A stretch of DNA of 45,898 nt, taken from positions 1-45,898 of the IMG/VR virus record IMGVR_UViG_3300025759_000166, one strand, 5' to 3'. Below the pieces are notes generated by a model, which saw nothing but the letters and a program-made list of their open reading frames with translations, was not told where the DNA came from and did not search any database. Shown in pieces: positions 4,682 through 36,028 of this stretch. Origin of the DNA: a virus. The translations under genes and the position numbers were made by a program. Position 1 is the stretch's first letter, and every line of letters starts with the position of its first letter.

Positions 4682-6661
4682 TTAGTGGACTAAAGTTTTT
4701 AACATTCCCATTGACCAGCTTTGCCCCCCCAATTTCTGAGAAACAATCTGTATACCTATTTCATCTCCCTGTAGTCTTGATCCCAAACTGGTAAAGCCAT
4801 CCACTGCATAACCAATTGTTCGGGTGCCGTATGTGGACACACCATCAAATGTTGACCATTGTACCGCTAATGGAGGATCAACAAATCTCAAGTAGTGGGT
4901 TCCAGACGGTAAGGTTCCCGTTAAATCAATAGCACTGCCTCCTAATGTTTCCGACAATGTAACGGCTGTTGTGGAAACCGACTCGATATAATAAGTATTG
5001 CCATTAGTTAGCCCCCCTATTGCCGAATCCCCTTCAACATAAGTGACCGCGTCACCAACCGAAAAATCGGTGTTAACATTCCAATCGGTAGTATCTAATG
5101 TCAGGGTTTCGGCACTGTTATCCATCGCTGTTACAGCGCGTTGTGCTAAATTATTTTCTACCCACAATTTAACCTCGACACAGCGGTCATCATACCCCGA
5201 TACCACCGTTGTAAATCGTGCGGGTATAGTTTTTGCACCTGAGTTGCCAGTTGTCGATGGACTGGTAATGTCCATAACCTTCGTTGTTCCATTGTAAGCT
5301 ACTGTTGCAGTGCCACTAGCTACCCAGTCACCGATACCATATTGGAATATAGTGTTACCAGTTTCGTCACGCTCTCCCAGTATATTAAATCCAACATCCA
5401 ATTGATCTACGCCTAGTATAACGTGTCCATCTCCCAACCACTTACCTTCAGCACCACCGCCGGTGTAATCACAGTTATTTGCTTTTACTACCTGGTCGGC
5501 ACCGATCTCAAATGCATAACCACCCTCAAATTTACAATCAGTAAACGAACAGGTCGTAGCAAAGTTGGTACTTACCTTAATGATAGCTGTTACACTACTG
5601 TAGCTGGTAAATTCGGTTTGAAAGAATGACCACCCATGTCCAGCCAAACCACCATCCACAAACTCAACAGCATAATCGTTACCGTGTTCGCTTTCAAATA
5701 CGCCACCAATCACCAGGTTACGCATGATAGTATTACCCCCATAAGGCGGTGTTGCAACCAACTTAGCGTGTGACCACGTTCCAGCCCATATGTGCCTGTT
5801 ATCAGCATGTGAGGGTATCGTCGCACCAGAATAACGGGTTTGCACCCCAAATAAAGCGTTGTTGCGAGCATCGTTAGCGAAGGCTACATTTCGCTTATTG
5901 TTGCTGATTTTCATGGACAGGAACGTGCTGTTTTGCGCCCCATCCAAGACTAGACCACCCTCGGTATGATTCAGTATTCGAACATGCTCAATGTAGGCTC
6001 CACTACTAGCAGCTTGCACAATCATTCCAAATTCAGCAATGTCATTACCATCAATCCTAAGATCGTGAACATGACTATTAGAGGAAACATTTAACCGCGC
6101 ATCAGCATGGTTAGCTTTTAATACGGAAGCACCGTGCGATTCACCATTCAGGGTTCTTTCGTCCTCTAAGTCAATCAAACCACTATACTCAAAAGTTCCT
6201 TCTGGAATAAATATTCTCTTACCAGTGGCTATACACAGATTGATCGTAGCCGTATTATCCGCTGCCGCTGTGGTTACCGCGCCAGCCCACTTAATATTGA
6301 TAGGGGTATTAAAGGATCTTTTATAGCGAACCCCATTGGCATCGACAATACAAGTAAAGCCATCATCCGCTGTTACGGCATCCGAAGTATCAACAAACAG
6401 GGGTGGCCCAAAGTCACCGTCACCATCCGTGTAATAACCAGACAGATACACAGCCGTATTATCAGTAAAAGAGTCTGTGTTGTTTCTCAGATCATTTACG
6501 TTACCAAAACCACCGGTTAATTCTACTGACAATTCGGTATTAGTAATACTCCCCGGATTCACCTGGAACGTCCCGCCGCCTAAGCGGTTAAGTTTATCGT
6601 TAGTGACCTTCTCGTTACTGGTTAAAATAAGATCTGGTGTTCTTGTAATTTCTCCACTCAT
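4682..6661 (-). CDS. Tailspike-like protein with right-handed beta-helix
   Basis: This 659-residue protein begins with a short N-terminal region (about residues 1-95) of the type that attaches fibres to the tail. Next comes a pectate-lyase-like region in which about residues 125-400 show the Asn- and Val/Ile-rich repeats of right-handed beta-helices (for example HVHDLRIDGNDIAEFGMIVQ). The C-terminal 200 residues are beta-rich and may trimerise or bind glycan. Such spikes usually bind and often cleave host surface polysaccharide. Catalytic acids cannot be assigned by eye. It follows the nozzle-like gene by one base. Confidence 0.75.
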   Translation of the reverse strand: MSGEITRTPDLILTSNEKVTNDKLNRLGGGTFQVNPGSITNTELSVELTGGFGNVNDLRNNTDSFTDNTAVYLSGYYTDGDGDFGPPLFVDTSDAVTADDGFTCIVDANGVRYKRSFNTPINIKWAGAVTTAAADNTATINLCIATGKRIFIPEGTFEYSGLIDLEDERTLNGESHGASVLKANHADARLNVSSNSHVHDLRIDGNDIAEFGMIVQAASSGAYIEHVRILNHTEGGLVLDGAQNSTFLSMKISNNKRNVAFANDARNNALFGVQTRYSGATIPSHADNRHIWAGTWSHAKLVATPPYGGNTIMRNLVIGGVFESEHGNDYAVEFVDGGLAGHGWSFFQTEFTSYSSVTAIIKVSTNFATTCSFTDCKFEGGYAFEIGADQVVKANNCDYTGGGAEGKWLGDGHVILGVDQLDVGFNILGERDETGNTIFQYGIGDWVASGTATVAYNGTTKVMDITSPSTTGNSGAKTIPARFTTVVSGYDDRCVEVKLWVENNLAQRAVTAMDNSAETLTLDTTDWNVNTDFSVGDAVTYVEGDSAIGGLTNGNTYYIESVSTTAVTLSETLGGSAIDLTGTLPSGTHYLRFVDPPLAVQWSTFDGVSTYGTRTIGYAVDGFTSLGSRLQGDEIGIQIVSQKLGGQSWSMGMLKTLVH

Positions 6662-10260: not shown

Positions 10261-10524
10261 TCATTGAGATTCTAGGAACCGAATACGCAGTTCGTGGTCA
10301 TTCACTTTTTCCACCAAGGGCATAAAGTCCCGCTCAGCCATTTCACGGGTATATCGGGTGCCTTGACTGGCATTGGCTTCTAGGACCGCTAATCGACCCT
10401 CGGTTTCCTTGGCAAAATTAACAAATTCTTTCATACCCCAAGCAAACATGGGGACGATAATAATTAAGCACAACGTTCCCACGATTGCGGATAGTAGTTT
10501 TATGTTTTCTTTATTGTCAGTCAT
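10261..10524 (-). CDS. Small single-TM protein, lysis candidate
   Basis: This 87-residue protein, starting MTDNKENIKLL, has one strong transmembrane segment at about residues 10-30 (AIVGTLCLIIIVPMFAWGM) followed by a helical, charged C-terminal half. I chose the start at 10524 because it forms an ATGA overlap with the stop of the upstream gene. A longer reading upstream lies inside that gene. An N-terminal anchor plus coiled-coil tail would suit an i-spanin-like or holin-partner protein. This is a guess based on topology and on two other membrane proteins beside it. Confidence 0.6.
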   Translation of the reverse strand: MTDNKENIKLLSAIVGTLCLIIIVPMFAWGMKEFVNFAKETEGRLAVLEANASQGTRYTREMAERDFMPLVEKVNDHELRIRFLESQ

Positions 10525-10928
10525 TTTATAGCTTGCCCAAGGTAGAAGCCTAATAGGGCTAGGAATCCTTGACGGATCTCCACGGGGAACAGCACCCCTT
10601 CTACGGTTATAAATTCTGTTACCATGCGCTTCCAAAACAACATGCCTTTACTAACTTCCGTTTCCACTATCACCGGTATACCCGCAAATCCCGCGACAAT
10701 GATTGACGCAAACATAGCCGCTATGAGAAAGTAGATACCCCGGCGCATCCAAGTGCCACCCTTTCCTGCACGTTTAGCCGCTGCGTCCTGGTTAGCGTTG
10801 GATAGTATCGACCGTTCCTTGGCTATTTCAAATATCTCCCTTCGTGAATCCGCGAATTGACGGAACACGAATCCAACACCACTGGTTACCAGCGGTATCA
10901 GAGCTTCCAATGTGAGGCTTTCAATCAT
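10521..10928 (-). CDS. Multi-TM membrane protein, holin candidate
   Basis: This 135-residue protein starts MIESLTLEALI. Hydrophobic segments lie at about residues 8-20, 60-83 (IYFLIAAMFASIIVAGFAGI) and 113-130, separated by a charged helix (about 25-50). The size and several short membrane segments fit a phage holin, but no named family was recognised. The start at 10928 overlaps the end of the upstream gene by eight bases and is preferred over the more upstream ATG at 10961, which lies deep inside that gene. It is coupled to the next gene by ATGA. Confidence 0.6.
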   Translation of the reverse strand: MIESLTLEALIPLVTSGVGFVFRQFADSRREIFEIAKERSILSNANQDAAAKRAGKGGTWMRRGIYFLIAAMFASIIVAGFAGIPVIVETEVSKGMLFWKRMVTEFITVEGVLFPVEIRQGFLALLGFYLGQAIK

Positions 10929-11139
10929 GTTTTTTAGGTAAGACCCGTTTACCGGCCTCAATGGTGTGGTCTATGGATTTCCTGTAGGCTCCACGGACCT
11001 TACTGTTAAAATGTGAACCACCAAAAATACCAATGAGAAACGAAACGAATGGGTGAGAAATAAATTCCCATCCAAAATCCATCCAACTACGGATACCTTC
11101 TTGTAGTCCTTCTCGCGTGATTGCTAGTAGTTCGATCAT
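10921..11139 (-). CDS. Small membrane protein in lysis-like cluster
   Basis: This 72-residue protein has one hydrophobic segment at about residues 29-42 (HPFVSFLIGIFGG) and a basic C-terminal half ending in KRVLPKKHD. It overlaps the heparinase-like gene by four bases and the following membrane protein by eight. With its two neighbours it forms a three-gene run of small membrane proteins directly after the exported-protein genes. That is a plausible place for a lysis cassette, although no endolysin is recognised nearby. Confidence 0.55.
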   Translation of the reverse strand: MIELLAITREGLQEGIRSWMDFGWEFISHPFVSFLIGIFGGSHFNSKVRGAYRKSIDHTIEAGKRVLPKKHD

Positions 11140-14100
11140 AGTGTTATATTGGTTCCGTCATAATTGAGTGTATATACCCCACCGGATTCGGTGAGTGTCA
11201 GAGTCGTAGGAGGGCTGGCTTTCACGTATGGCACTATGACAATGTCGAACGTGCCTGTGGATTTGAGACGGAAGATGTATTGTTCCTCGCTGTAGGTTCC
11301 ACCGTTCTCAGCCACCCATAGTGTTTTCATGGCTGACGTTCCGACGTTATGCTCAAAATGTTGGATGATGTAATCCGTGGCAGCATCGGCTATAACAAAC
11401 ACCGTAAAATCTGCCACCCATTGTCCTGTAAATTCAAACTTATGAATACCTGCTGCTAACGAGTATTCGGTAGCGGTCCCTGTGCTAGTGTTGAGCGTTC
11501 CGGCTGGTGGCGTATTGTTGCCATCGGGTGTAACCACTGCACCAGATGCCATGAAGTTATACGAGGCTATCTTACTATCAGCAATCCAGTCACCACCCCA
11601 ATCATCCTCTACACGATAAATTACTGTGGAATCCTCTATCTCATTGTAGCGTGTGATGCGTCTCGTTTGCGTATCCGTATCCGCTCCGTCCGTATATTGT
11701 ATCTGTGTCTCAGCCCACGATGTGTTCACCCCAAAGTTGGATGTGCTAGAAAGAATAGTATCCTGCCCATCTTCATCTCCGAATATATCAGCATCCATGC
11801 CGGAATAAGCATTAGTCCATGTCGTAATCTTCGACGATGGCACAACTACATTATGAAAGTAGTTACCAGCTACCCGAGGATCATACTGAGGCCCCCAATC
11901 AATCGAGATGGGTGCTCCCATAGCATACAGGGAAAACGATCCTTGATCATGGTGCCTGTGATCTCGGTAATACGTGCCGTGAACAAAGTGCATCACCGAC
12001 TCTAATGGATCATCCAGATGGTTCCTTAGCACCGTTCCAAATCCATTCCAGAATTTGTCACCCGTGGTCCGAGTGCCGGAAGCAATAGAAGTGTCGTTAA
12101 TCACCACCGTTGGTCCTAATATATTCTCATGGTATGAACCATTGTCTCGCCATGTTTTTATTAACTCACCAGCAAGTGTGGGATCGGCGGTCTTGAATAG
12201 GGTGGCTAGGGTTCCAGTTAAAGCTATACGCTCCGTAGGCCCATCTCCCAATGATACCACTGCCGTTGCCGTTCCATACCGAGCTTCAGTGGGTGTGTGC
12301 ATTGCCATCAGGTAATCAGCCATGAGTGCCACCTTGGAATTTATGGTTGGTAATTCCCCTGCTCGTTGTAATTGCAGCATCAGGTAAGCCAACGGTTGAA
12401 ACGAAGCCTCACCCATGTAATGGGGAGCCGATTCATGCACTCCATACGCATTCACTGTGCTCTCAATACTGGCGTCCAATACCGTCTTAATCTCTGTGAG
12501 GTCGATAGTCTGCGCACCGTCAATAAGGGATGTATATAGAGCGAATCTGTCACGTCCTGCCTTGTATTGAACGGGCATATTAGAGGTTCCAAGACTGGAG
12601 GTGTATTCATCTTGTAAGGGAACGTGGTCATTATCCTGAAGTAAATTAGTGAATATGCTGGCAGCGTCTAATAAGTCTTGCCGCTGAGCGTCTGTAATCG
12701 AACTACCTTGGTATTCATCTAAAGCTAATAGCGTTGTTATAGCAAAGAAATGAGTAGAGATGTTCCGCACTAACTTCCAGTAGGTGTTATTTTCGTCATA
12801 GATTCCATAGTAGTTATGGATGCGATTAAAAACGCTAGTGAGCTGAGCCGTAACCGTATTCACTGCTGTTGTTGCATAGGTGGCAGGATCATTTACAGCT
12901 TGCCATATGTAGTCGTAACTCGACGCTGTGCTGTGTGCGTCGCCCCATGCACCCGAAGAATTGTTAGCCGATGCTTGCATATCATCCACCCAACTTTGAA
13001 ATCCTGCATCTGATAGGTAGGCATGGCCAACCGTAGGATCGGTAAGCTCTAGGTTTAGATTCAGCACCTTCGAGAGATTCATTCCCGCATAAAGGGTTTG
13101 TTTTTTCTGAATATCCTGAGCCACATTATAAGCTCCTATCTCTGATTTTAGCCCAATGTAAAACCCATAACTCCAGCGGTTAATAGCCCCATAAGTAGCA
13201 TCTGGCCCGGTTCTCCATATCATGTGCCTCAGCTTTGTTTGTGTGTTACCACCTTCAGAGTGTGGTTCCCAACCAGAATAATGACAACCAATGATTCGGG
13301 AAACAGGTCCGTTAAATAGGGCAAGCATATTAGATCCCGCTGCTCCGGCTGTATCAGAGAACATCCAATATGTTCGGCCAGTGTTTGTAGGTGTTCCGGG
13401 TGCAGGCCAAGGTCTGAAAAGTCTACGACCATCGTAATCATTATTGATGGTGAATGGCAGGTCTACATACGCCTCTACTGGATTAGCAGTAGACCCATTG
13501 GAGAACGTCGTTAAATCAACAGGGTGATAGCCCCAATTTGTGTTATCTGTAGTATGTGGAATATACTGCCCCCGATCAGGAACCAGTCCAGTGTCTAATA
13601 CTATCTCCCAATACACATCATCATTGCTGTGTGATTCCATCAGCACCACCTCTGGATCATGTGAAAATAGCTGTATACGGGCGTTGTAATAACGATCTGA
13701 GGAACCTTGCCGTGTAAACTGTGTATCCACGTCTACCGTCCATCTTAACGGACCTTCCTCTACCCACGTAACATCCCGATTATCGGTTGACGTAGGATCA
13801 ACCTCACTGTTTGTCAGTTTTACCAGCTTATCCCCTGTCATCGCCCACGTGCCGTCCTGATACTTGAATGCCTGAAGCGGTTGCAGAAACGTCGGACTGG
13901 CATCCGCTTTCGGAATGCGAATAGCAGTTGAGCTAGTTTCGAGTAGATGACGGGTAGCTTCATCGGTTCTTGTGATAGGATTGGCGTAGTCATCCAAAGC
14001 AGTTTCGCCTGGTATCATCTCCAACTCGATCACCTGATCCGCTGTCATACCACTCTCCAATAGGAGAAGCAGCTTCCCGTCTGCCGCTATCTGGTGAGGG

Positions 14101-14315
14101 TAATACGTTCCACCCGAATCAATCACATAAAATGGTTCCGAGGGTGTTTGCATATCCAATTCCACCAACTGTTCACGATGGGCAATTCCCAACGGTTCAG
14201 TGAGGGTGAACGCAATGTTACCGCGTGTCCGGTTGCGCCCCTCGCTCATATAAGCCGTGGGCGGTATCGCGTGGGCGGTTACGCTCAGTAAGAGCAATGT
14301 AATGAAAATTCTCAT
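11136..14315 (-). CDS. Exported heparinase II/III-like polysaccharide lyase
   Basis: This 1059-residue protein begins with a clear signal peptide (MRIFITLLLLSVTAHA, cleavage after AHA). The middle (about 380-700) is helix-rich, like the alpha/alpha barrel of heparinase-type lyases. Around residues 780-800 there is YYRDHRHHDQGSFSLYAMG, which strongly resembles the heparinase II/III C-terminal signature with its catalytic-region His and the DQGSF motif. The C-terminal 260 residues are beta-sandwich-like, as in that family. Such enzymes cut acidic polysaccharides by beta-elimination. The signal peptide implies export from the host, which is unusual for a phage spike. It is fourth-gene neighbour to other exported proteins and may act on capsule or released glycans. 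Activity and substrate are inferred. Confidence 0.72.
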   Translation of the reverse strand: MRIFITLLLLSVTAHAIPPTAYMSEGRNRTRGNIAFTLTEPLGIAHREQLVELDMQTPSEPFYVIDSGGTYYPHQIAADGKLLLLLESGMTADQVIELEMIPGETALDDYANPITRTDEATRHLLETSSTAIRIPKADASPTFLQPLQAFKYQDGTWAMTGDKLVKLTNSEVDPTSTDNRDVTWVEEGPLRWTVDVDTQFTRQGSSDRYYNARIQLFSHDPEVVLMESHSNDDVYWEIVLDTGLVPDRGQYIPHTTDNTNWGYHPVDLTTFSNGSTANPVEAYVDLPFTINNDYDGRRLFRPWPAPGTPTNTGRTYWMFSDTAGAAGSNMLALFNGPVSRIIGCHYSGWEPHSEGGNTQTKLRHMIWRTGPDATYGAINRWSYGFYIGLKSEIGAYNVAQDIQKKQTLYAGMNLSKVLNLNLELTDPTVGHAYLSDAGFQSWVDDMQASANNSSGAWGDAHSTASSYDYIWQAVNDPATYATTAVNTVTAQLTSVFNRIHNYYGIYDENNTYWKLVRNISTHFFAITTLLALDEYQGSSITDAQRQDLLDAASIFTNLLQDNDHVPLQDEYTSSLGTSNMPVQYKAGRDRFALYTSLIDGAQTIDLTEIKTVLDASIESTVNAYGVHESAPHYMGEASFQPLAYLMLQLQRAGELPTINSKVALMADYLMAMHTPTEARYGTATAVVSLGDGPTERIALTGTLATLFKTADPTLAGELIKTWRDNGSYHENILGPTVVINDTSIASGTRTTGDKFWNGFGTVLRNHLDDPLESVMHFVHGTYYRDHRHHDQGSFSLYAMGAPISIDWGPQYDPRVAGNYFHNVVVPSSKITTWTNAYSGMDADIFGDEDGQDTILSSTSNFGVNTSWAETQIQYTDGADTDTQTRRITRYNEIEDSTVIYRVEDDWGGDWIADSKIASYNFMASGAVVTPDGNNTPPAGTLNTSTGTATEYSLAAGIHKFEFTGQWVADFTVFVIADAATDYIIQHFEHNVGTSAMKTLWVAENGGTYSEEQYIFRLKSTGTFDIVIVPYVKASPPTTLTLTESGGVYTLNYDGTNITL

Positions 14316-15763
14316 TAATAAGCGGGCGGCGTTCCTCCCCCGTAGAGGTCGGTGACTTCCGAGGCTGTAACTTCAGAACCAGACATAATTGCAACCTCGT
14401 CCACTTCTGCCGTTGCATACGTTCCAACAGTGTTTGCGCCAAATTGAAATGTATCTGATAAGACGTTTATTGTATCTGAGCCAGCAGTGGATGCCGCTGC
14501 CACCGATGAGCCATCTATGTAGACATTAATATCCGCTGAAGTAGCTGATGACGGCCACGTAACTACAAAATGATGCCATGACCCGTCCTGATAGCCACTC
14601 CCAAAGCTGGCAGTATTTCCCACACCCTGCCTCGCCCACAATACACCATTTTCTAATGATAATTGCTGCATTGAACCGCCTGGAGTATCAATTCCCATTG
14701 AGAAAAACCGCTCAGTTCCGGTGCCTGATGCCTTAACCCATCCAGAGATAGTAAAAGCACCCGTTCCTGTATGGACATCATTCGTTGCTCGGCTTAAACT
14801 TTCACTATTGGCCGCTACAAAGTTGGCAGCATTACTCAGGACCCCCGTAGAACTGGCAACCGTGTTATTATCCGTCAACGTGAGCGAACCTACACTATCC
14901 GAGCGGTTGCCGCTGGCCTCGTTGAAATCATAATAAGTGGTTACCTTTGCCGCCAACGTAGGGTGGTCGCTGATGGTGGTCCAAGGCTCGTAAGCCGGTG
15001 GCGTTCCTTCCCCGTAGAGATCGGCGATCTCATCCGTGGACAGGGCCTTGCTCCATATGCCCACCTCGTCGATGAGGCCGTCGAAGTTGTTATCTCCAGT
15101 AGCCCAGCCAGCACCTATTTGGAACAACGAAGTATTATCCTGGATTGAGGCGGGAATGGTGCCACCTGCTGTTTGTGTCAACGCCACTCCATTTCGATAC
15201 ATTGTGAGTGATGTGCTGGGCACAAACACCATAACCATGTGATACCATGTGGCTGTTGACGGAACAGCAGTTATCTGTTTGGTATATACAGCAGTTCCAT
15301 CGCTTGAGACATAGCCCTCCTGCTGATCCACAGCATCAATATGCATTTGATACGACCTTAAATTGCCTGCGGTTATGTATTTTCCAGCAATTCCCATTAC
15401 GTTTAAACTCTCAATATTCACCCAAGCAGATATACTTACCGCGCCTGTAATTGACAGGGATGCATTGTCGGCAATAGATAAATACTCCGAGTTGTCTCTC
15501 TCAAAATCAGCCGCATTACCAAGTTTTCCGGCTGCCGATAACACCGTGTTGTTGTCGGTGAGGTCATTGCCCGTTGCTGTGGAATCCACCCGTGTGCCAG
15601 ATGCCTCATTTAAATTCCAATAGCTCACTAAATTCGTCGTGAGCGTAGGGTGGTCGCTGATGGTAGTCCAACCCGCGTTCTTCCGAGCAATAACACTATG
15701 AAACTGTGTGTTGGCCAACAGGATAGCTGGCAGCAATAAACTAGCTATTAAAAGGTTTCTCAT
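14315..15763 (-). CDS. Exported protein with two LamG/concanavalin-like domains
   Basis: This 482-residue protein has an N-terminal signal peptide (MRNLLIASLLLPAILLA). It then has two tandem units of about 225 residues, each starting WTTISDHPTL, running through a LamG-type beta-sandwich (YWNLNEASGTR; YYDFNEASGNR; GAFTISGWVKASGTG) and ending LYGxGTPPAY. LamG/ConA-like domains usually bind or position carbohydrates. The two units also share matching DNA around 14960 and 15645, so a recent tandem duplication is likely. It overlaps the lyase gene by one base (TAATG), suggesting joint expression and a shared glycan target. Confidence 0.72.
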   Translation of the reverse strand: MRNLLIASLLLPAILLANTQFHSVIARKNAGWTTISDHPTLTTNLVSYWNLNEASGTRVDSTATGNDLTDNNTVLSAAGKLGNAADFERDNSEYLSIADNASLSITGAVSISAWVNIESLNVMGIAGKYITAGNLRSYQMHIDAVDQQEGYVSSDGTAVYTKQITAVPSTATWYHMVMVFVPSTSLTMYRNGVALTQTAGGTIPASIQDNTSLFQIGAGWATGDNNFDGLIDEVGIWSKALSTDEIADLYGEGTPPAYEPWTTISDHPTLAAKVTTYYDFNEASGNRSDSVGSLTLTDNNTVASSTGVLSNAANFVAANSESLSRATNDVHTGTGAFTISGWVKASGTGTERFFSMGIDTPGGSMQQLSLENGVLWARQGVGNTASFGSGYQDGSWHHFVVTWPSSATSADINVYIDGSSVAAASTAGSDTINVLSDTFQFGANTVGTYATAEVDEVAIMSGSEVTASEVTDLYGGGTPPAY

Positions 15764-15765
15764 AA

Positions 15766-16542
15766 TTACGGTCCTCCATCAGTCCAGGAGTTGCTGGCAC
15801 AATACCAGCCTGTAGCGTCGTAGTAGGTGGCTGTGATGATGTCTCCGGCTGTAGAGGTGTTGGTTGCTTTGTCTCCGTCATCTAGGGCGGTTCCGTCCAA
15901 ATACATGAGGTCAGAAGCGTTGGTGTCCAATGATACCGCAATGGCCCCTATCGTAATAATCGTGTAGCTGGCTCCGTCTGATACGGCTGGCAATGTAAGG
16001 GTGGCTGCACTCGTTACGTAATGCACCGATCCATATCCTTCTCCCGTTGTCTCATCAAAGGACAGGGTGTGTGAAGCTGCATGTTTCTCTTCGTAGGTGG
16101 ACACACCCACTAAAGGCTCGTTACCAAACACCTCCCATGTATTCGTGGTATCACTATGCCAGACCGTAATGATTTTACCCGTTACAGATAAAGCCGCGGT
16201 GCCGGATATGGTCACTGAAGCCCCTGCCGTAATAGTCACAGCATTCGTCGCATCCGTCAGCATCACCGAGAATATTTCGTTGGCTCCTTCTCCTGAATTG
16301 ATGGTGATGGTCCTTGCTCCCCCTGAAGCATCGACTTGTAGCAGCTTCCCCGCATGGGTGGCCGTTGCATAGTCAATGTTCGTGCTCACCGCTACAGCAT
16401 CCCATTGGTCAATTTGCATGGACGACCTCATAGCCGTTACATCAGCGGTTTGAAGAAAGGTGTCTACGCTAGACGAAACCGTCACGTCAGCTCCCACAAG
16501 TAAGCTCGGTATGAGAGCCAAGATTAAGAATAGTTTTTTCAT
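15766..16542 (-). CDS. Exported fibre-like beta protein
   Basis: This 258-residue protein has a signal peptide (MKKLFLILALIPSLLVGA). The body resembles phage tail-fibre modules: a short region like THAGKLLQVDASGG is followed by beta strands with Thr-rich turns (VTITAGASVTISG) and the element DTTNTWEVFG. A second similar module lies at the C-terminus (TYYDATGWYCASN). Finding fibre-type modules behind a secretion signal is odd, and may mean the mature protein is displayed at the host surface or joins the virion outside the cytoplasm. It is linked to the next gene by ATGA. Confidence 0.6.
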   Translation of the reverse strand: MKKLFLILALIPSLLVGADVTVSSSVDTFLQTADVTAMRSSMQIDQWDAVAVSTNIDYATATHAGKLLQVDASGGARTITINSGEGANEIFSVMLTDATNAVTITAGASVTISGTAALSVTGKIITVWHSDTTNTWEVFGNEPLVGVSTYEEKHAASHTLSFDETTGEGYGSVHYVTSAATLTLPAVSDGASYTIITIGAIAVSLDTNASDLMYLDGTALDDGDKATNTSTAGDIITATYYDATGWYCASNSWTDGGP

Positions 16543-16763
16543 GGTTGTAAGTAGTATTCGGTTCCGCCTGGTTGCAAGTAATAGTCTACGCCTCCTGGCT
16601 GTAAATAAGCATTCACTGGGCCTGCCGCTGCTGTTCCTTCGTCTGTTACTAACGTGCTCACGATGGGCCTCGCTAATGGTCTAGCTAGGTGTCTGGCCGT
16701 CTGACCTATCAGGACGCCTCCTACGCCCAATAGCAGGGCTACAATCAATGCTTTGCGTTTCAT
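16539..16763 (-). CDS. Small exported protein with YLQPGG repeats
   Basis: This 74-residue protein starts with a long hydrophobic segment (KALIVALLLGVGGVLIG) that looks like a signal peptide or an N-terminal membrane anchor. The mature part is short and ends with three copies of YLQPGG or close variants. I know of no family for it. The start overlaps the preceding gene by one base, and the stop overlaps the next gene by four bases. Its function is unknown; the repeat may serve as a docking tail. Confidence 0.5.
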   Translation of the reverse strand: MKRKALIVALLLGVGGVLIGQTARHLARPLARPIVSTLVTDEGTAAAGPVNAYLQPGGVDYYLQPGGTEYYLQP

Positions 16764-17116
16764 TATCGTTCTTCCCTGACCACGTAGTCAATGTCGGGTG
16801 AAGTGGAACTGGCCAAAGTAATACGGATGGATGATCCGGGCACACCATCGAAGGAAAAACCATCATCATCGGTATAAGAGATCGCACCGGATGTGTTCTT
16901 AAAAGCCACATAGGTATCGCCCACTAGATAAAATACGGTTACCGTGCCACCACCAAAGTCACCGGAGAAACCAATGGAACCTTTCGTGCCCGGTCGCCAG
17001 TCAATATCCGTGTTACCATCAGCGGTTAAAGTCCCGGCTGCGTTAGCTGCCCATACCGCTAGGGGTATGCTGACGGCTAGTGTTAATACTGCTAAAAGTT
17101 TTAATTGTTTCTTCAT
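16763..17116 (-). CDS. Exported small beta-rich protein
   Basis: This 117-residue protein carries a signal peptide (KLLAVLTLAVSIPLAVWA, cleavage near AAN). The mature part of about 90 residues is beta-rich with many Gly, Asp and Thr, similar in composition to small fibre or adhesin domains. I cannot assign it to a family. It is the first gene transcribed in a run of five consecutive genes that all encode signal peptides, and it starts just after the adaptor-like gene. Confidence 0.55.
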   Translation of the reverse strand: MKKQLKLLAVLTLAVSIPLAVWAANAAGTLTADGNTDIDWRPGTKGSIGFSGDFGGGTVTVFYLVGDTYVAFKNTSGAISYTDDDGFSFDGVPGSSIRITLASSTSPDIDYVVREER

Positions 17117-17120
17117 AAAT

Positions 17121-17867
17121 TTATCCTCCTGATCGGACCCTAACGGGGGGTCGTATTTGTTGATTCTTTTGTCGTTCCCATTTTTCTATTTCCAAGTCCC
17201 TTGCCCTATCCGCTTGCCGTCGTAGGATCATAGCCTTATTAGTTTCCCCCTCGGCTTCCCTGATATCAGCCACAACAGAGAGCCGTGCGTGTTCAAATAG
17301 GAATGCCGGTATTTCACGGCGATCCCACCATGCGGTTTCGGTTACCTCATGACCCAAATTAGAATCCGCCAATGACCGATAGTAATCCAGAGTCGTAGAG
17401 TCATAAACCATATCACCGTTGGAATAGGATTCGGCCAACGAATGCTCGATACCATCGAACGGGTAGAACCGCTGCCGATACTTCAGGTATACAGTCGTCG
17501 TCGTAGCTAGATCATCCAGTAGATTAAGACCACCGGAATCCTCGGAAAAACCATAGTAAGTGGGCCACCGCTTAACACGCGGGTCATATTTGGAAATGCT
17601 GAACAGGTCATACTCAGCGTAGTTATCCAAATTAGCTACCGTATCACTGGTAACGCTCATTAAGGGTGCCCAAGGATAGTATTCCCAACTGGTGCGTAAT
17701 GCTGAGTTGATGTAGTCCCGTATGGCCAGCGCATCATCATTGAGTAAACGAGCCGGTGTTATCCCCGTTAAACGCGAAATAGCATAGAGCAAATCACGAT
17801 AGGTCCTTGTTTGGTAGTAAGGGACTACCGCTGTGTTAGTGGCTTCTGTTCCGGTGTATGTGGCCAT
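17121..17867 (-). CDS. Head-tail adaptor-like protein
   Basis: This 248-residue helical protein begins with a region (YAISRLTGITPARLLNDDALAIRDYINSA, here given in parts) that resembles connector or adaptor proteins of podoviruses, in which a helical bundle docks under the portal. A TxxxYYRSL segment and a basic C-terminus follow. No catalytic motif is seen. It lies in the region between head and tail genes, overlapping the upstream fibre-like gene by one base. The assignment is based on position and composition and could equally be another tail-ring protein. Confidence 0.42.
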   Translation of the reverse strand: MATYTGTEATNTAVVPYYQTRTYRDLLYAISRLTGITPARLLNDDALAIRDYINSALRTSWEYYPWAPLMSVTSDTVANLDNYAEYDLFSISKYDPRVKRWPTYYGFSEDSGGLNLLDDLATTTTVYLKYRQRFYPFDGIEHSLAESYSNGDMVYDSTTLDYYRSLADSNLGHEVTETAWWDRREIPAFLFEHARLSVVADIREAEGETNKAMILRRQADRARDLEIEKWERQKNQQIRPPVRVRSGG

Positions 17868-18853
17868 TAGCTAACTACCAGGGTTTGAGGGTTATCGAAG
17901 TTGTAACTGGTTCGCTGCATCCACACGTAGTAGGTTCCAGCGTCCAACATGAAAGTGGCTTGACCACTAGCGTTGGTTGTCAGGGTTCCCGCTACTACAT
18001 TGGTTCCAGCAACATCGGTCGTGATCCATACTTCAACGCCATCCAGCGGATTCGAGAGGGCATCGGATATTGTAATGACTTCTTCGATGGCACCCGATCC
18101 AGTGTTGCTGGTGGCATCGGCCAGTTTCGCGACTGACCCCGCTACTGCTACGGTTTCACCCGTATCATCAGTGGCGAACTGTGCTAAGGCGGCTGTAGTC
18201 ATGGCTCCCACGGTTACGTTACCACCGGCTGATCCTTGTGCTATCTTTGCTACTGATCCCGCCGCTGCTACCGTTTCACCAGTATCATCGGTTACCATCT
18301 CGGCTAAAGCCGCTTGAGTGAATCCACCTACCGTTACGTTACCCGGCGTTAAACCATTAGTAACAGTGGTAACGGTAGGAATGACAGCCCCCGTATGTGT
18401 GGCGGCGGCCAGCGTTACGGTGTCCGTAGTGTAGTCAAACGTGAGTCCAGATCCGGTCGCTTTAAAGTCAGCTACACCCGATACTGCTGATCCGGCACAT
18501 TGAGTGACATCGACCTGGAGTTTATCGGATGAATAGAGTGAATCAAATACATTAGCGGGTAATACCTTGTAGCTATAAACCACATGAAGATGGGTCGCCG
18601 GAGCACTAACTGATACAACTAGGTCACCAGCGGTATTCGTATCCGTAGCATCAAGATGCACACGGTAAAATCCATCAGCATCATAACTGATAGCCGTCGA
18701 ACTATTACGTGCGCCCAAGGCACCACCGTATTTAGCCAGCTTAACGGTCATGGAACCGGCTAATCCGGTTTCGTTGGTTGCAGCATCACTAACATCGACG
18801 AATGGGCCAATGTTGATGTAACGTGCCGTGGATTGTCTTAAATCAAAGCTCAT
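17867..18853 (-). CDS. Virion protein with 40-residue repeats and C-terminal Ig-like domain
   Basis: This 328-residue protein has a tandem repeat of about 40 residues (GNVTVGxxTxAALA followed by TDDTGETVAxAGSVAK) at about residues 175-265. It ends with an immunoglobulin- or carboxypeptidase-regulatory-like domain (about 265-328: NPLDGVEVWITTD and ASGQATFMLDAGTYYVWMQ). Such domains often decorate phage heads or fibres. The first 110 residues form another beta domain. It overlaps the spike gene by four bases. The repeats are a likely site of copy-number change. Confidence 0.6.
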   Translation of the reverse strand: MSFDLRQSTARYINIGPFVDVSDAATNETGLAGSMTVKLAKYGGALGARNSSTAISYDADGFYRVHLDATDTNTAGDLVVSVSAPATHLHVVYSYKVLPANVFDSLYSSDKLQVDVTQCAGSAVSGVADFKATGSGLTFDYTTDTVTLAAATHTGAVIPTVTTVTNGLTPGNVTVGGFTQAALAEMVTDDTGETVAAAGSVAKIAQGSAGGNVTVGAMTTAALAQFATDDTGETVAVAGSVAKLADATSNTGSGAIEEVITISDALSNPLDGVEVWITTDVAGTNVVAGTLTTNASGQATFMLDAGTYYVWMQRTSYNFDNPQTLVVS

Positions 18854-21066
18854 GCTAAACTGACGTATTGAAGTTTGTTGCTACCTACGGTGACCACACG
18901 ACAAGTTAATACCTGTGAACTCGTAATACTGTAGGATTGACTGAAATTGTTCCAAGACGAGTTTGGCTGGAACGTAATAGTATGTCCCGTGTTGTAGGGA
19001 CGAAATTTAAGATAAGAACCCACCTTATGTTTATCGAGATTACTGATACCAGTTATGCTATATACGGTCTCGCCGTTGTTCTGGATCTTGGTTTGCCCCC
19101 ACTCGACTTCCAGTGAGGATGAGGTTCCCGAAACGGTCTGTGCGTGCCATAATGCAGCAAAGTCCTCATATAGAGGGAGGGGTAACGTAGAATCCGGGTT
19201 ATTCAAGTTAATGAACATACTAAACTCATCTGTCGATAAACTAGACACGGACCAATCACGCATCTTGTAGTTGGCCCTGCCGCTAGCGTTAGTATGCTGG
19301 TCCTGTATGATACGGGTAGCCGTCTGACCATTACCGTTAATCACAATATTATCCAAGATGTAGTTATCCTGGCAATTGATGTTGCTAAAATTCTTAATCA
19401 GTCCACCCCCGTTACCCATGTCACTCGTTCCCATGTCGAACGTAATCTTATTCAGGTAAACGTAATCCATGCCTCCCGATAGCTTGTAGAGTGATTCCGC
19501 TTTGGGGATAACACTTAAAAACGCACCACTACTGTCAGTAGGATTCTCGATGGTGATGTTATTGTAAAAGGCGTTAAAGCACTCATACCAAGGGGCAATC
19601 CCCGTTTCACCAAAGTTCTCAACTGTGCAGTCAGTGACGGTTTGAAATGTTCCTACCTGATTAAATATATGTATACCACTAAAGGCGTTCTCCGCTGTTG
19701 CTAAATCGGATAAGTCTTTCATTACCCCGGATACCGATTGATCCAGACAGTTGAACGTGCAACCGCGAATGATAGAATCCTGATAAAAGGCTAACCCGTT
19801 AAAAGTACTGACTAATTGAGACCCAGTCGCATTATCACCACTAAGAGAGTGAGGGGAGTTTTCCACCCCTGCATTAGAGAAATCACTGAACGTGCAGTTC
19901 TCAAATTCCACACCCGCCGACATACTGGTGATCGAACTATTGGACTGTGAGAAAACACAATCCACTAGCTTGAACTTACCAGAGAACTCTAATCCACCCC
20001 AGTAAGCTATCTCCCCACGGATGTTACGTGCACGAACATTGGTTAACAATATGTTGCGAGCATTAACATCGTTGCCTCTTACTAGCTTCTGGCTAATATC
20101 CCACTGGTAACGTAATTCATCGAAGGTATACCACCGCTTCCCCGTTGATACGGGATTGGATGTCATATCAATGTCAACGTCCTTGAGTTCGATATTCTCT
20201 ACCCCCTCGTCAACGCGCCAGAATGAATACCTTTTGATGCCGTAATACTCGTCGGTTCCACTGGGTCCCTGGTAAATATCGGAATCAACTGCCGGATTCC
20301 CTCCAGCGTTTTTCAATACGGTCAGGAAGTCAGTTCCGGGGCGATTAGCCCACAGTCGGCAAGTAAAAAAAGTAGTAGGATTCCCACTGCCATCCACATC
20401 ACCGTAGATAACAGTATTTGACATATCACCCGTAATGAAGGCTCCTGCGAATGTTTGTCCATTAGTGACTTTTAAATATGATCCATCCCAAGTTACCGCC
20501 GGATCGGTGGGGTAAATCAGGTAAGTTCCAGCCGGGCAACGTAAGTTACACTTATTAGCGTTACCCCGAATGGTGGAAAATGCGGATTGGAAAGCGGCCC
20601 AACTATTAGTTGCCCCAGTGTTATCGGCTCCGAAATCGGTAACCACATTGTAGTTAGTCTCCGATATAGCGTCCGTAGTCGCACCACCGTATTGCCAATC
20701 CGTATAAGTTGCTGTTGCACCAGCGCGGGTTACGGCATCATAATTAGTGACGTAACAGGCCCGGTATTCGTAAGTGGTATTAGCGGTAAGACCTAAATCG
20801 ATGTAACGATTGGCTTCACGTATCCCTACCCAAATAAAATTAGTGTCAATATCCTGAGCGGCTGCCAGGTTGACGGTTGGCCAAGTGCCATCGGTTGACC
20901 GCTGTAAAATACAGGGGTCATTCCATTTACCCGATTCATCCACCCATTCCATATCAATAAACATCCATCCACTGTCACGAATCGTCATCGTGTGAGCGGG
21001 GTTGGGTGCGGGTCCGGCATCCGCGAATAGCGTCCGGGCCTTGATAAGATCGGGGGCTAGTATCAT
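18850..21066 (-). CDS. Beta-helix spike or head-fibre protein with N-terminal FnIII-like domain
   Basis: This 738-residue protein starts with a fibronectin-III-like domain (about residues 20-120, with ANTTYEYRACYV). A pectate-lyase-superfamily entry follows (VVTDFGADNTGATNSWAAFQ, about 140-165), then a long right-handed beta-helix with Asn/Gly turns (about 300-600) and a beta-rich C-terminus. It is the second beta-helix protein of this genome. Its place right after capsid genes rather than in the tail module leaves open whether it is on the head or tail. It probably binds or cleaves a polysaccharide, but catalytic residues cannot be picked out. Confidence 0.65.
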   Translation of the reverse strand: MILAPDLIKARTLFADAGPAPNPAHTMTIRDSGWMFIDMEWVDESGKWNDPCILQRSTDGTWPTVNLAAAQDIDTNFIWVGIREANRYIDLGLTANTTYEYRACYVTNYDAVTRAGATATYTDWQYGGATTDAISETNYNVVTDFGADNTGATNSWAAFQSAFSTIRGNANKCNLRCPAGTYLIYPTDPAVTWDGSYLKVTNGQTFAGAFITGDMSNTVIYGDVDGSGNPTTFFTCRLWANRPGTDFLTVLKNAGGNPAVDSDIYQGPSGTDEYYGIKRYSFWRVDEGVENIELKDVDIDMTSNPVSTGKRWYTFDELRYQWDISQKLVRGNDVNARNILLTNVRARNIRGEIAYWGGLEFSGKFKLVDCVFSQSNSSITSMSAGVEFENCTFSDFSNAGVENSPHSLSGDNATGSQLVSTFNGLAFYQDSIIRGCTFNCLDQSVSGVMKDLSDLATAENAFSGIHIFNQVGTFQTVTDCTVENFGETGIAPWYECFNAFYNNITIENPTDSSGAFLSVIPKAESLYKLSGGMDYVYLNKITFDMGTSDMGNGGGLIKNFSNINCQDNYILDNIVINGNGQTATRIIQDQHTNASGRANYKMRDWSVSSLSTDEFSMFINLNNPDSTLPLPLYEDFAALWHAQTVSGTSSSLEVEWGQTKIQNNGETVYSITGISNLDKHKVGSYLKFRPYNTGHTITFQPNSSWNNFSQSYSITSSQVLTCRVVTVGSNKLQYVSLA

Positions 21067-27328: not shown

Positions 27329-27520
27329 TTATTGCGGTATCGGTTCAAATTCGGATTGGTCGATAACGGTCAGTAGTCTTACCCCCTTTTGGGGATACAC
27401 CGTTACCAGTAGGTTATCACCGTCAATGTCATTAACGGTCACGGGATCAACACGCGGCTCATCATAGGCCACATAACGGAGCCAGATGCCGGGTTGGTTG
27501 GGTTGGATAATGGTGGTCAT
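27329..27520 (-). CDS. Small hypothetical protein after DNA methyltransferase
   Basis: This 63-residue beta-rich protein (GIWLRYVAYDEPRVD, LLVTVYPQKGVRLL) is linked to the methyltransferase by a one-base TAATG overlap, so it is probably translated with it. It has no family I recognise. An accessory role to the methyltransferase is possible but unsupported. Confidence 0.5.
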   Translation of the reverse strand: MTTIIQPNQPGIWLRYVAYDEPRVDPVTVNDIDGDNLLVTVYPQKGVRLLTVIDQSEFEPIPQ

Positions 27521-28164
27521 TAAAATAATGTCTGTTGCGCTGTTTCGCGTTTAATGCGTTCACAAGCGGATTTGTAATAGTCCTCGTCTAGTTCACAGGC
27601 TGTTAGGTGTAGTCCGGCATAATGACAGGCTATGGCGTGTGAGCCGCTTCCAAGGTGTGTGTCCAGAATAGTGTCGCCTTCCTTCGCGTAGTTGCGTAGG
27701 AGCCAGTCGTATAATTCTACTGGCTTTTGTGTCGGGTGAATCTTCTTATTGAGTGCCGAAACCACGAATCCTCCATTTGAGCAAAACTTATATATTTTTG
27801 CTATACAGTCAAATGAAGTCCATGCGTATTCGCACTGTGAGTAGTTGCTTGCAAACTTAACCTTATCCCAAATCGCAAATCCCCTTGTCGGTGGTAGGTT
27901 AAAATAGTTCCCCCCCCATATAATTTGATTCTTACTTACCCGCGAAAGCTCAATAAAGTATTCTGCTGTCGGCGCTACATCGTTCCAATTTCCTGAATTA
28001 TAAAGCTCTTGCATTCTATTTGGAGACTTACATCCACCGATTGATAACTTATCACCAATCCCATAAGGCGGGTCCACAATAGCCAGATCAAAGTGCTTGT
28101 CAGGATATTCCCGCATCAGATCCATGCAGTCCATATTACGTATGTCTAGTAAGTCTGTTTTCAT
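27520..28164 (-). CDS. Orphan N6-adenine/N4-cytosine DNA methyltransferase
   Basis: This 214-residue protein has the catalytic motif DPPY at residues 31-34 (AIVDPPYGIG). A later SAM-binding motif (DTHLGSGSHAIA) lies at about residue 178. The order DPPY then GSGS, plus HPTQKP before it, is that of the beta-class enzymes. These methylate adenine N6 or cytosine N4 in DNA. No restriction partner is encoded, so it is likely an orphan enzyme that shields phage DNA or marks it for packaging. Specificity cannot be told from the sequence. Confidence 0.85.
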   Translation of the reverse strand: MKTDLLDIRNMDCMDLMREYPDKHFDLAIVDPPYGIGDKLSIGGCKSPNRMQELYNSGNWNDVAPTAEYFIELSRVSKNQIIWGGNYFNLPPTRGFAIWDKVKFASNYSQCEYAWTSFDCIAKIYKFCSNGGFVVSALNKKIHPTQKPVELYDWLLRNYAKEGDTILDTHLGSGSHAIACHYAGLHLTACELDEDYYKSACERIKRETAQQTLF

Positions 28165-34400: not shown

Positions 34401-34931
34401 ATGAAAACAATAACACCAACAACGCCCCGTTTATACGTGGGAACTTACGCTAAATATAGCTCTGGATCAATAGCCGGTGCATGGCTGGATCTCGAAGACT
34501 ATTCCGATAAAGAGGAATTTTATGAAGCCTGCGCGGAACTCCATAAAGATGAGAAAGACCCGGAGTTCATGTTTCAGGACTTTGAGGGCTTCCCTAAAGA
34601 TCTTTATTCCGAAAGTGAAATAGACGGTGAGATATGGGAATGGATCAATCTTGAGGAGGAGGATCGTAAACTCTGTGCTATGTTCACTGAGGCAACCGGC
34701 GCGGATTTACTTGAAGCCTTAGCGAGTTTCCAAGATTCATTTTACGGAACCGCCGATAGCCCAGCTGATTTTGCCGAAAACCTTGCGGAAGAATGCGGGG
34801 AAGTTCCAGAAACAGCGTCCTGGATTGTTATCGATTGGGAAGCCTCCTGGAATTGCAATTTGCGGCATGATTTCATTGATGTTTACGATACTGAAACCGG
34901 CAGCTATTACTTTTTTAACCGGAACTGGTGA
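34401..34931 (+). CDS. ardA: Antirestriction protein ArdA
   Basis: This 176-residue acidic protein closely follows the ArdA pattern. It has an N-terminal PRLYVGTYAKYSSGSIAGAW, then an acidic helix, EEFYEACAELHKDEKDPEF, a middle with FQDFEGFP, and a C-terminal half with many Asp and Glu. ArdA mimics the shape and charge of DNA and blocks type I restriction enzymes. Its length is close to the usual 160-170 residues. It is preceded by the cassette's A-rich leader and followed at once by a tiny membrane peptide. It fits an early-expressed host-defence escape role. Confidence 0.88.
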   Translation: MKTITPTTPRLYVGTYAKYSSGSIAGAWLDLEDYSDKEEFYEACAELHKDEKDPEFMFQDFEGFPKDLYSESEIDGEIWEWINLEEEDRKLCAMFTEATGADLLEALASFQDSFYGTADSPADFAENLAEECGEVPETASWIVIDWEASWNCNLRHDFIDVYDTETGSYYFFNRNW

Positions 34932-35617: not shown

Positions 35618-36028
35618 ATGAGCCTGAAAAAACCCTTTTTCATAATGTTAGGGTTATCACTAGCCGGTTGTGTGTCTCAGGATGCGCAACCGGTTTCCCT
35701 TACTCCTAACAGCTCCATTGGCCTCGAATCAATAGCTGATGCCAGTATTCTAACTCGCGAACGCATCGGCGGTCAGTCCACGTTTGTCACTGGTAACAGT
35801 ATGAAGCCGATTTTCGGTGAGAGGACCATGCTCATATTCAAACACTCATGGCCTATTAAAAGGGGCCAATTAATAGTCTTTGATTACCAGGGTAACCGGT
35901 ATTTTCATCAGGTGATTGCCATTGACGGGGATCGCTTTTTAACCAAAGGTATTAACAACGATCAACCCGATCCGTGGATGAGCCGACAGAATTATGTTGG
36001 TACCGTTTACTGGGCGGGATGGTTTTAA
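35618..36028 (+). CDS. Lipoprotein with ER-type signal peptidase-like (S26) fold
   Basis: This 136-residue protein has a lipoprotein signal with lipobox LAGC (Cys18). The mature part has GNSMKP with Ser61, then an RGQLIVFDYQGN stretch, then FHQVIAIDGD where His97 stands where bacterial signal peptidase I has a Lys, and KGINNDQ (about 110-116). The Ser/His pairing and HxVI plus KGxNN order match the Sec11/ER-type signal peptidase family rather than the bacterial Ser/Lys one. Such a protein anchored by lipid would act on exported proteins. The leader is A-rich with no SD site. Activity is not proven. Confidence 0.68.
   Translation: MSLKKPFFIMLGLSLAGCVSQDAQPVSLTPNSSIGLESIADASILTRERIGGQSTFVTGNSMKPIFGERTMLIFKHSWPIKRGQLIVFDYQGNRYFHQVIAIDGDRFLTKGINNDQPDPWMSRQNYVGTVYWAGWF

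Follow-up and report, generated by a model that had tools for sequence, protein, structure and literature searches.

In the window, the whole 45,898-nucleotide stretch of IMG/VR virus record IMGVR_UViG_3300025759_000166, five consecutive, coupled minus-strand genes (g1 to g5, positions 11136-17116) each begin with a signal-type N terminus, and together they stand where related phages encode their fibre module. On balance, we lean toward reading this block as a lineage-specific, Sec-exported, glycan-binding and glycan-degrading version of that module, made late in infection. An earlier reading of the sequence alone (the sequence-only reading) had placed five overlapped or nearly abutting signal-peptide genes at 11136-17116, and both parts of that description were borne out: the coordinates match, all five products passed a calibrated signal rule (g2 marginally), and the junctions span −4 to +4 nucleotides. 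In transcription order they are +4 from the adaptor gene to g1, then −1, −4, +2, and −1, with −4 from g5 to the following gene.

Signal sequences were called with a rule-based scorer that looks for a net positive n-region, a hydrophobic h-region, and a −3/−1 cleavage site. Over the ∼60 genes of the window, the rule passed g1 to g5 and a lipoprotein gene at 35618-36028 only. All five proteins open with a charged n-region followed by a hydrophobic h-region, and in four of them the cleavage site is good, plausibly of the AxA type; by signal peptidase I-type criteria (n-region, h-region, −3/−1 site, and no lipobox), g1, g3, g4, and g5 were clear and g2 was marginal. No second transmembrane-like segment was present in g1, g3, g4, or g5. 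On an E. coli K-12 calibration set, the rule passed 15 of the 20 proteins known to be secreted, 1 of the 48 cytosolic ones, and 4 of the 21 from the inner membrane; given this last figure, it separates export signals from anchors more weakly. The base rate in related phage loci was <4%: 9 of 1127 genes were called when entire loci were counted and 23 of 607 downstream of the capsid gene, the latter mostly lysis lipoproteins and holin-like genes. The run of five signal genes had a P of ∼5e-5 when the six calls were permuted over 60 genes and of <1e-5 when computed from the base rates. The calibration and base rates ruled out chance or an artefact of the rule as the source of the run.

Compared across the family, the block fills the fibre slot, with the head-tail adaptor gene on one side and the holin-like genes on the other. 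The left border is the gene for an adaptor-like protein (17121-17867, minus strand) that is 64-65% identical in the related contigs L005 and L006, and the right border is the gene for a 72-residue protein (10921-11139, minus strand) that may be a holin component. Beyond it are genes for a holin-like 135-residue membrane protein (10521-10928, minus strand; phrog_38283, 9e-10), whose place is conserved in the family, with homologues in L002, L065, L067, L073, and L080, and for an 87-residue protein with an N-terminal membrane segment that is spanin- or lysis-accessory-like (10261-10524, minus strand). Portal identity with the window was 73-77% in four contigs; L005 and L006 are the only two other contigs of the genus that reach the slot, and a genus-level scan for further slots gave no new locus reaching it. 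In these two contigs the tail hub is 61% and the terminase 74-81% identical to that of the window over the stretches compared (60-80% across the operon), and the slot contains two short signal-free genes encoding proteins of 98 and 171-174 residues, the latter discoidin-like by eye. In more distant relatives, with a portal of ∼32% and a capsid protein of 32-45% identity, the slot contains in order one or two proteins of 85-113 residues, a protein of 46-70 residues that often ends in short repeats, at least one fibre or LamG protein, and a small protein, all signal-free, followed by lipoprotein and holin-like genes and then the tail hub. The window repeats this order of types (117 residues, 74 residues, fibre-like, LamG), but every member has a signal sequence, and the lyase is extra. 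On the sequences compared, this correspondence is one of position and type, with g1 to g3 too diverged to prove orthology. Because the relatives have signal-free fibre, LamG, and small proteins there in the same order, the set predicted to be exported replaces the fibre module and is not a foreign insertion. A search for the same run of genes in related phages, as had been suggested earlier, found no phage homologue of the block but did find the same slot holding ordinary signal-free fibre-type genes. As a separate observation, the slot of L085, a distant relative, includes a membrane-anchored protein (L085:13178-13624) that is S26-like by eye and is without the GxSMxP serine motif.

The slot comparison bears on two further explanations. 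We think it improbable that the five products are virion proteins whose hydrophobic N termini act as anchors or assembly elements, with assembly in the cytoplasm as in the relatives. This would fit a slot shared with the relatives' cytoplasmic fibre proteins, the inner-membrane calls of the rule, and the lack of a good cleavage site in g2, but it is opposed by the plausible AxA-type sites in four of the five proteins with no other membrane segment and by the absence of such N termini from the relatives' slot proteins; it would otherwise be hard to explain how five proteins each came independently by a hydrophobic leader with a charged n-region. We also give little credence to export followed by attachment, in which fibre components would pass to the periplasm or out of the cell and be added to virions upon lysis or later. 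Such a route is favoured by the position of the block, where the relatives' genes are of fibre type and follow the same order, and by the annotation of LamG proteins of other phages as virion structural proteins, but we found no precedent in the literature searched, separate tail-spike candidates remain at 4682-6661 and 18850-21066, and a lyase with its own signal needs no virion.

Signals on fibre-slot genes were found once more in the family. Of the family loci whose sequence runs on for 2.5 kb or more past the capsid gene (75 in all), only L022 had convincing signals on such genes: at L022:12220-17178, consecutive slot genes for a fibre, a LamG protein, and a 135-residue protein have signal-type N termini. 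The fibre gene starts at 12220, is TAATG-coupled to the preceding stop, and encodes the signal MKLFLKIFAFVSLTALAVAQ; the LamG protein has a hydrophobic N terminus, and the 135-residue protein has the signal MKALFFILLATAAYAQ. The other calls of the survey fell on proteins of holin-like or membrane type read from internal starts, or were probably spurious. Because L022 is distant from the window, signals in the fibre slot were probably gained at least twice.

The genes of the block are coupled, promoter-like sites are not in excess, and codon usage matches the tail genes, and on these grounds we assign the block to the late operon. Promoter- and terminator-like sites around it were at chance level compared with shuffles, in a scan for the sigma-70 type only, and its codon usage tracks that of the tail genes of the phage with r = 0.90. 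Composition and codon usage also ruled out a foreign island. These results bear on the possibility, which we consider unlikely, that the block is a lysogenic-conversion or auxiliary metabolic cassette whose exported glycan-utilisation proteins serve the host during a prophage state. Consistent with such a cassette, the genome encodes a tyrosine integrase (PF00589), g5 has its homologues among carbohydrate-active enzymes of Opitutae bacteria, and the block is missing from the syntenic site in the close relatives L005 and L006, as is characteristic of morons. However, all of its genes are coupled within the late operon, promoter-like sites are no commoner than in shuffles and the promoter and terminator of its own that mark a moron were not found in that scan, codon usage is that of tail genes, and no transport or regulatory genes stand beside it.

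The last two genes of the block have domain-level or superfamily assignments. The g4 gene (14315-15763, minus strand) encodes a 482-residue protein with a signal peptide ending ...AILLA|NTQ and two LamG/concanavalin-A-like domains; PF13385 matched it in two stretches at 1.9e-36 (125.9 bits compared with a curated cut-off of 27.6), which confirmed the double LamG protein of the sequence-only reading. No homologues of g4 were found in phages. LamG proteins without signals occupy the equivalent slot of L127 and L141; the signal call on the LamG protein of L128 has the look of a false positive.

The g5 gene (11136-14315, minus strand) encodes a 1059-residue divergent protein of the heparinase II/III - alginate lyase superfamily with a signal peptide ending ...VTAHA|IPP. 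No direct match was obtained in Pfam, PHROG, NCBIfam, or PDB, and membership was reached through bacterial proteins. Among 286 genomes from the class to which an Opitutae metagenome-assembled genome (MAG) belongs, 6 had homologues (best 1.2e-18), and two of the homologues passed the PF07940 cut-off. A hidden Markov model built from the bacterial homologues alone matched g5 at residues 611-824 (1.6e-40 as a one-sequence search), and a profile that included g5 matched PL15, PL39, and PL12-type lyases in PDB (best 2.6e-9), among them the oligo-alginate lyase 3a0o, the alginate lyases 6jp4 and 6jpn, and heparinases. Tyr365 and His531 of Atu3025 are catalytic (Table 4, PMC12088678), and by residue counting in the profile match Tyr633 of g5 aligns with the former and His786 with the latter; the neutraliser is perhaps Asn579, at a position where the alignment is uncertain. 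We conclude from these profile comparisons that g5 is a divergent superfamily member linked through bacterial intermediates and lies outside the PF07940 family proper, so the earlier label of heparinase II/III-like holds by way of the intermediates and not by a direct PF07940 match. Searches with the single protein or a two-sequence alignment found no homologue of g5 in phages, plasmids, viral contigs, or genome contigs; the single-protein scans of viral and genome contigs use exact peptide patterns and reach close relatives only.

The first three products are two small proteins and a fibre-like one. The g1 gene (16763-17116, minus strand) encodes 117 residues with the signal peptide MKKQLKLLAVLTLAVSIPLAVWA|ANA, cut at 23 or 26; the ∼91 residues after the signal are predicted to be all-beta in a low-confidence model (AlphaFold of mature g1, pLDDT 51), and the protein is the positional counterpart of the relatives' small proteins of 85-108 residues. 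The g2 gene (16539-16763, minus strand) encodes 74 residues with a signal sequence or anchor, MKRKALIVALLLGVGGVLIGQTARHLARP, and C-terminal short repeats (YLQPGGVDYYLQPGGTEYYLQP) of YLQPGG; it is the counterpart of the relatives' repeat proteins of 46-68 residues. The g3 gene (15766-16542, minus strand) encodes 258 residues with a signal peptide ending ...LLVGA|DV and a fibre-like remainder, of which the N-terminal VDTFLQTADVTAMRSSM is similar to the slot fibre of L085 (IDTFMQSANKAEML). The earlier description of g3 as fibre-like is weak: blastp matched a slot fibre of L022 at 0.006, and phmmer gave no match. No homologues of g1 or g3 were found in phages, and the peptide-pattern scan of viral contigs, which reaches close relatives only, found none of g3 or of the adaptor.

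From these features we infer export, late expression, enzyme activity, substrate, and purpose as follows. Each of the slot genes (for the small beta, short-repeat, fibre-like, and LamG proteins) would have gained a signal sequence at its N terminus, and a polysaccharide lyase, itself with a signal peptide, would have been added at the end of the block, directly before the holin-like genes. Co-expressed with the virion and lysis genes late in infection, the five proteins would be delivered by the host Sec pathway to the periplasm or beyond, where binding to envelope or extracellular glycans would fall to the LamG protein and perhaps also to the fibre-like one, and g5 would cut a uronic-acid-containing polymer by beta-elimination. 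The host matrix would thereby be loosened and receptor glycans masked or destroyed, and progeny would be released without re-adsorption. Such clearing of matrix and receptors for progeny exit is the purpose that we consider most likely, and the lysogenic-conversion, attachment, and cytoplasmic-assembly explanations are less likely. Several points weigh against our interpretation. The g2 protein may be an uncleaved membrane anchor; g1, g2, and g3 have no significant phmmer homologue, so that equating them with the relatives' slot genes is a matter of order and type only; g5 itself reaches no Pfam model, with PF07940 unmatched even at E 10; its third catalytic residue is uncertain in the alignment; and AlphaFold of g5 alone gave a pLDDT of 32, such that the (alpha/alpha) toroid plus beta-sheet fold could not be modelled. 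The exported glycan module of the sequence-only reading fits the signals, the LamG domains, the lyase-superfamily protein with its Tyr and His, and the place in the late operon; that the block occupies the fibre slot of the family emerged only from the comparison with relatives. Such a module may serve any of the three purposes suggested in that reading (clearing capsule, blocking superinfection, or supplying parts to virions after lysis), among which these data do not discriminate.

The sixth gene to pass the rule (35618-36028, plus strand) encodes a predicted lipoprotein with S26B (Sec11-like or archaeal-type) signal-peptidase motifs, GNSMKP...FHQVI...TKGINND. It matched Sec11C (7p2q) by phmmer at 0.0012 with the Ser and His motifs and the Asp motif TKG-NN-D aligned, and PF00717 at 6e-7; a lipobox, LAGC, takes the place of the N-terminal membrane anchor and predicts a lipid anchor. 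No close phage homologue was found, and no S24/S26 protein was found in the records of 25 relatives, including L022. The peptidase was rejected as an obligate partner of the block because L022 has slot signals without an S24/S26 protein; since any link would draw on one genome, we claim none, and the peptidase is perhaps unrelated to the block. We judge it very improbable that the slot is a dedicated secretome in which exported fibre homologues and the lyase assemble on the cell surface into a complex that prevents re-adsorption and breaks down the matrix, with the phage's own lipid-anchored Sec11-type peptidase processing them.

The window is a complete, circularly permuted phage genome with a real length of ∼45.75 kb. 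A terminal repeat (1-147 and 45751-45898, copies of 147 and 148 bases) contains one inserted base, and the "linear" class of the record is an artefact because the first 147 bases recur at the right end; the open reading frames at 18-2447 and 44974-45891 are a single gene split by the contig ends and the indel. The virion operon is on the minus strand. The genome encodes a major capsid protein of the SU10 type (PF17236, 1.3e-45), a terminase, a DnaB helicase, and the tyrosine integrase (43862-44929), which adjoins an internal virion protein gene; no repressor was recognised in the window despite the integrase. One tail-spike candidate (4682-6661) has a PHROG tail fibre match. The other (18850-21066), between the capsid and adaptor genes, encodes a weakly pectate-lyase-like protein of 738 residues that is kept at 56-57% identity in L005-L007 and is a candidate head-side decoration or depolymerase. 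An anti-restriction protein (34401-34931, plus strand; phrog_2059, 1.4e-19) is also encoded, as is an N6_N4 DNA methylase (27520-28164) that matches the profile end only (residues 140-200) and is possibly divergent or degraded. No endolysin was recognised in the window by the Pfam and PHROG searches made, which left several small early genes outside the scans; the holin-like genes are conserved. The sole match of the portal among genome contigs was an Opitutae MAG (L089), which hints at a verrucomicrobial host.

Phage fibre genes are assumed to yield virion parts built in the cytoplasm; here, slot genes of two distantly related phages have predicted export signals. If export is true, position alone would be insufficient to annotate fibre-slot genes as virion proteins, and addition of a leader peptide would be a simple way for a phage to turn an adhesin into a secreted decoy or a glycan tool. 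The block offers a testable set of phage-encoded, predicted-secreted, glycan-active proteins.

No paper describing a phage-encoded signal peptidase or a secreted fibre module turned up in the literature searched, but parts of the arrangement have parallels. Porphyromonas gingivalis phages have genes with Sec signal peptides (PMC10367356) and are thus like the block in that phage proteins are predicted to use the host Sec system; those genes are of unknown function or encode capsid proteins or spanins, and they form no consecutive fibre-slot module with a lyase. The LamG proteins of phage virions (in cyanophages and in the slots of L127, L128, and L141) have the same domain as g4 and, in those relatives, the same slot, but the relatives' copies start in the cytoplasm whereas g4 has a signal peptide. 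With the heparinase II/III - alginate lyase superfamily (PL12, PL15, PL17, PL21, PL35, PL39; PF07940; (alpha/alpha) toroid plus beta-sheet), g5 shares homology through the Opitutae proteins and the catalytic Tyr/His pair, matched by Tyr633 and His786; bacterial members are usually secreted, and g5 likewise has a signal peptide. It differs in having no PF07940 score of its own, an extra N-terminal region, a location in a phage late operon, and no phage homologue in the phage records searched. Precedents for export include the phage morons lambda lom and bor, Gifsy-2 sodC, and Fels-1 nanH, which, like the block, are signal-peptide genes in or beside late virion operons, some of them glycan-active. 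As a rule, each such moron is a lone gene that has a promoter and terminator of its own, whereas the window has five coupled genes that replace the fibre module.

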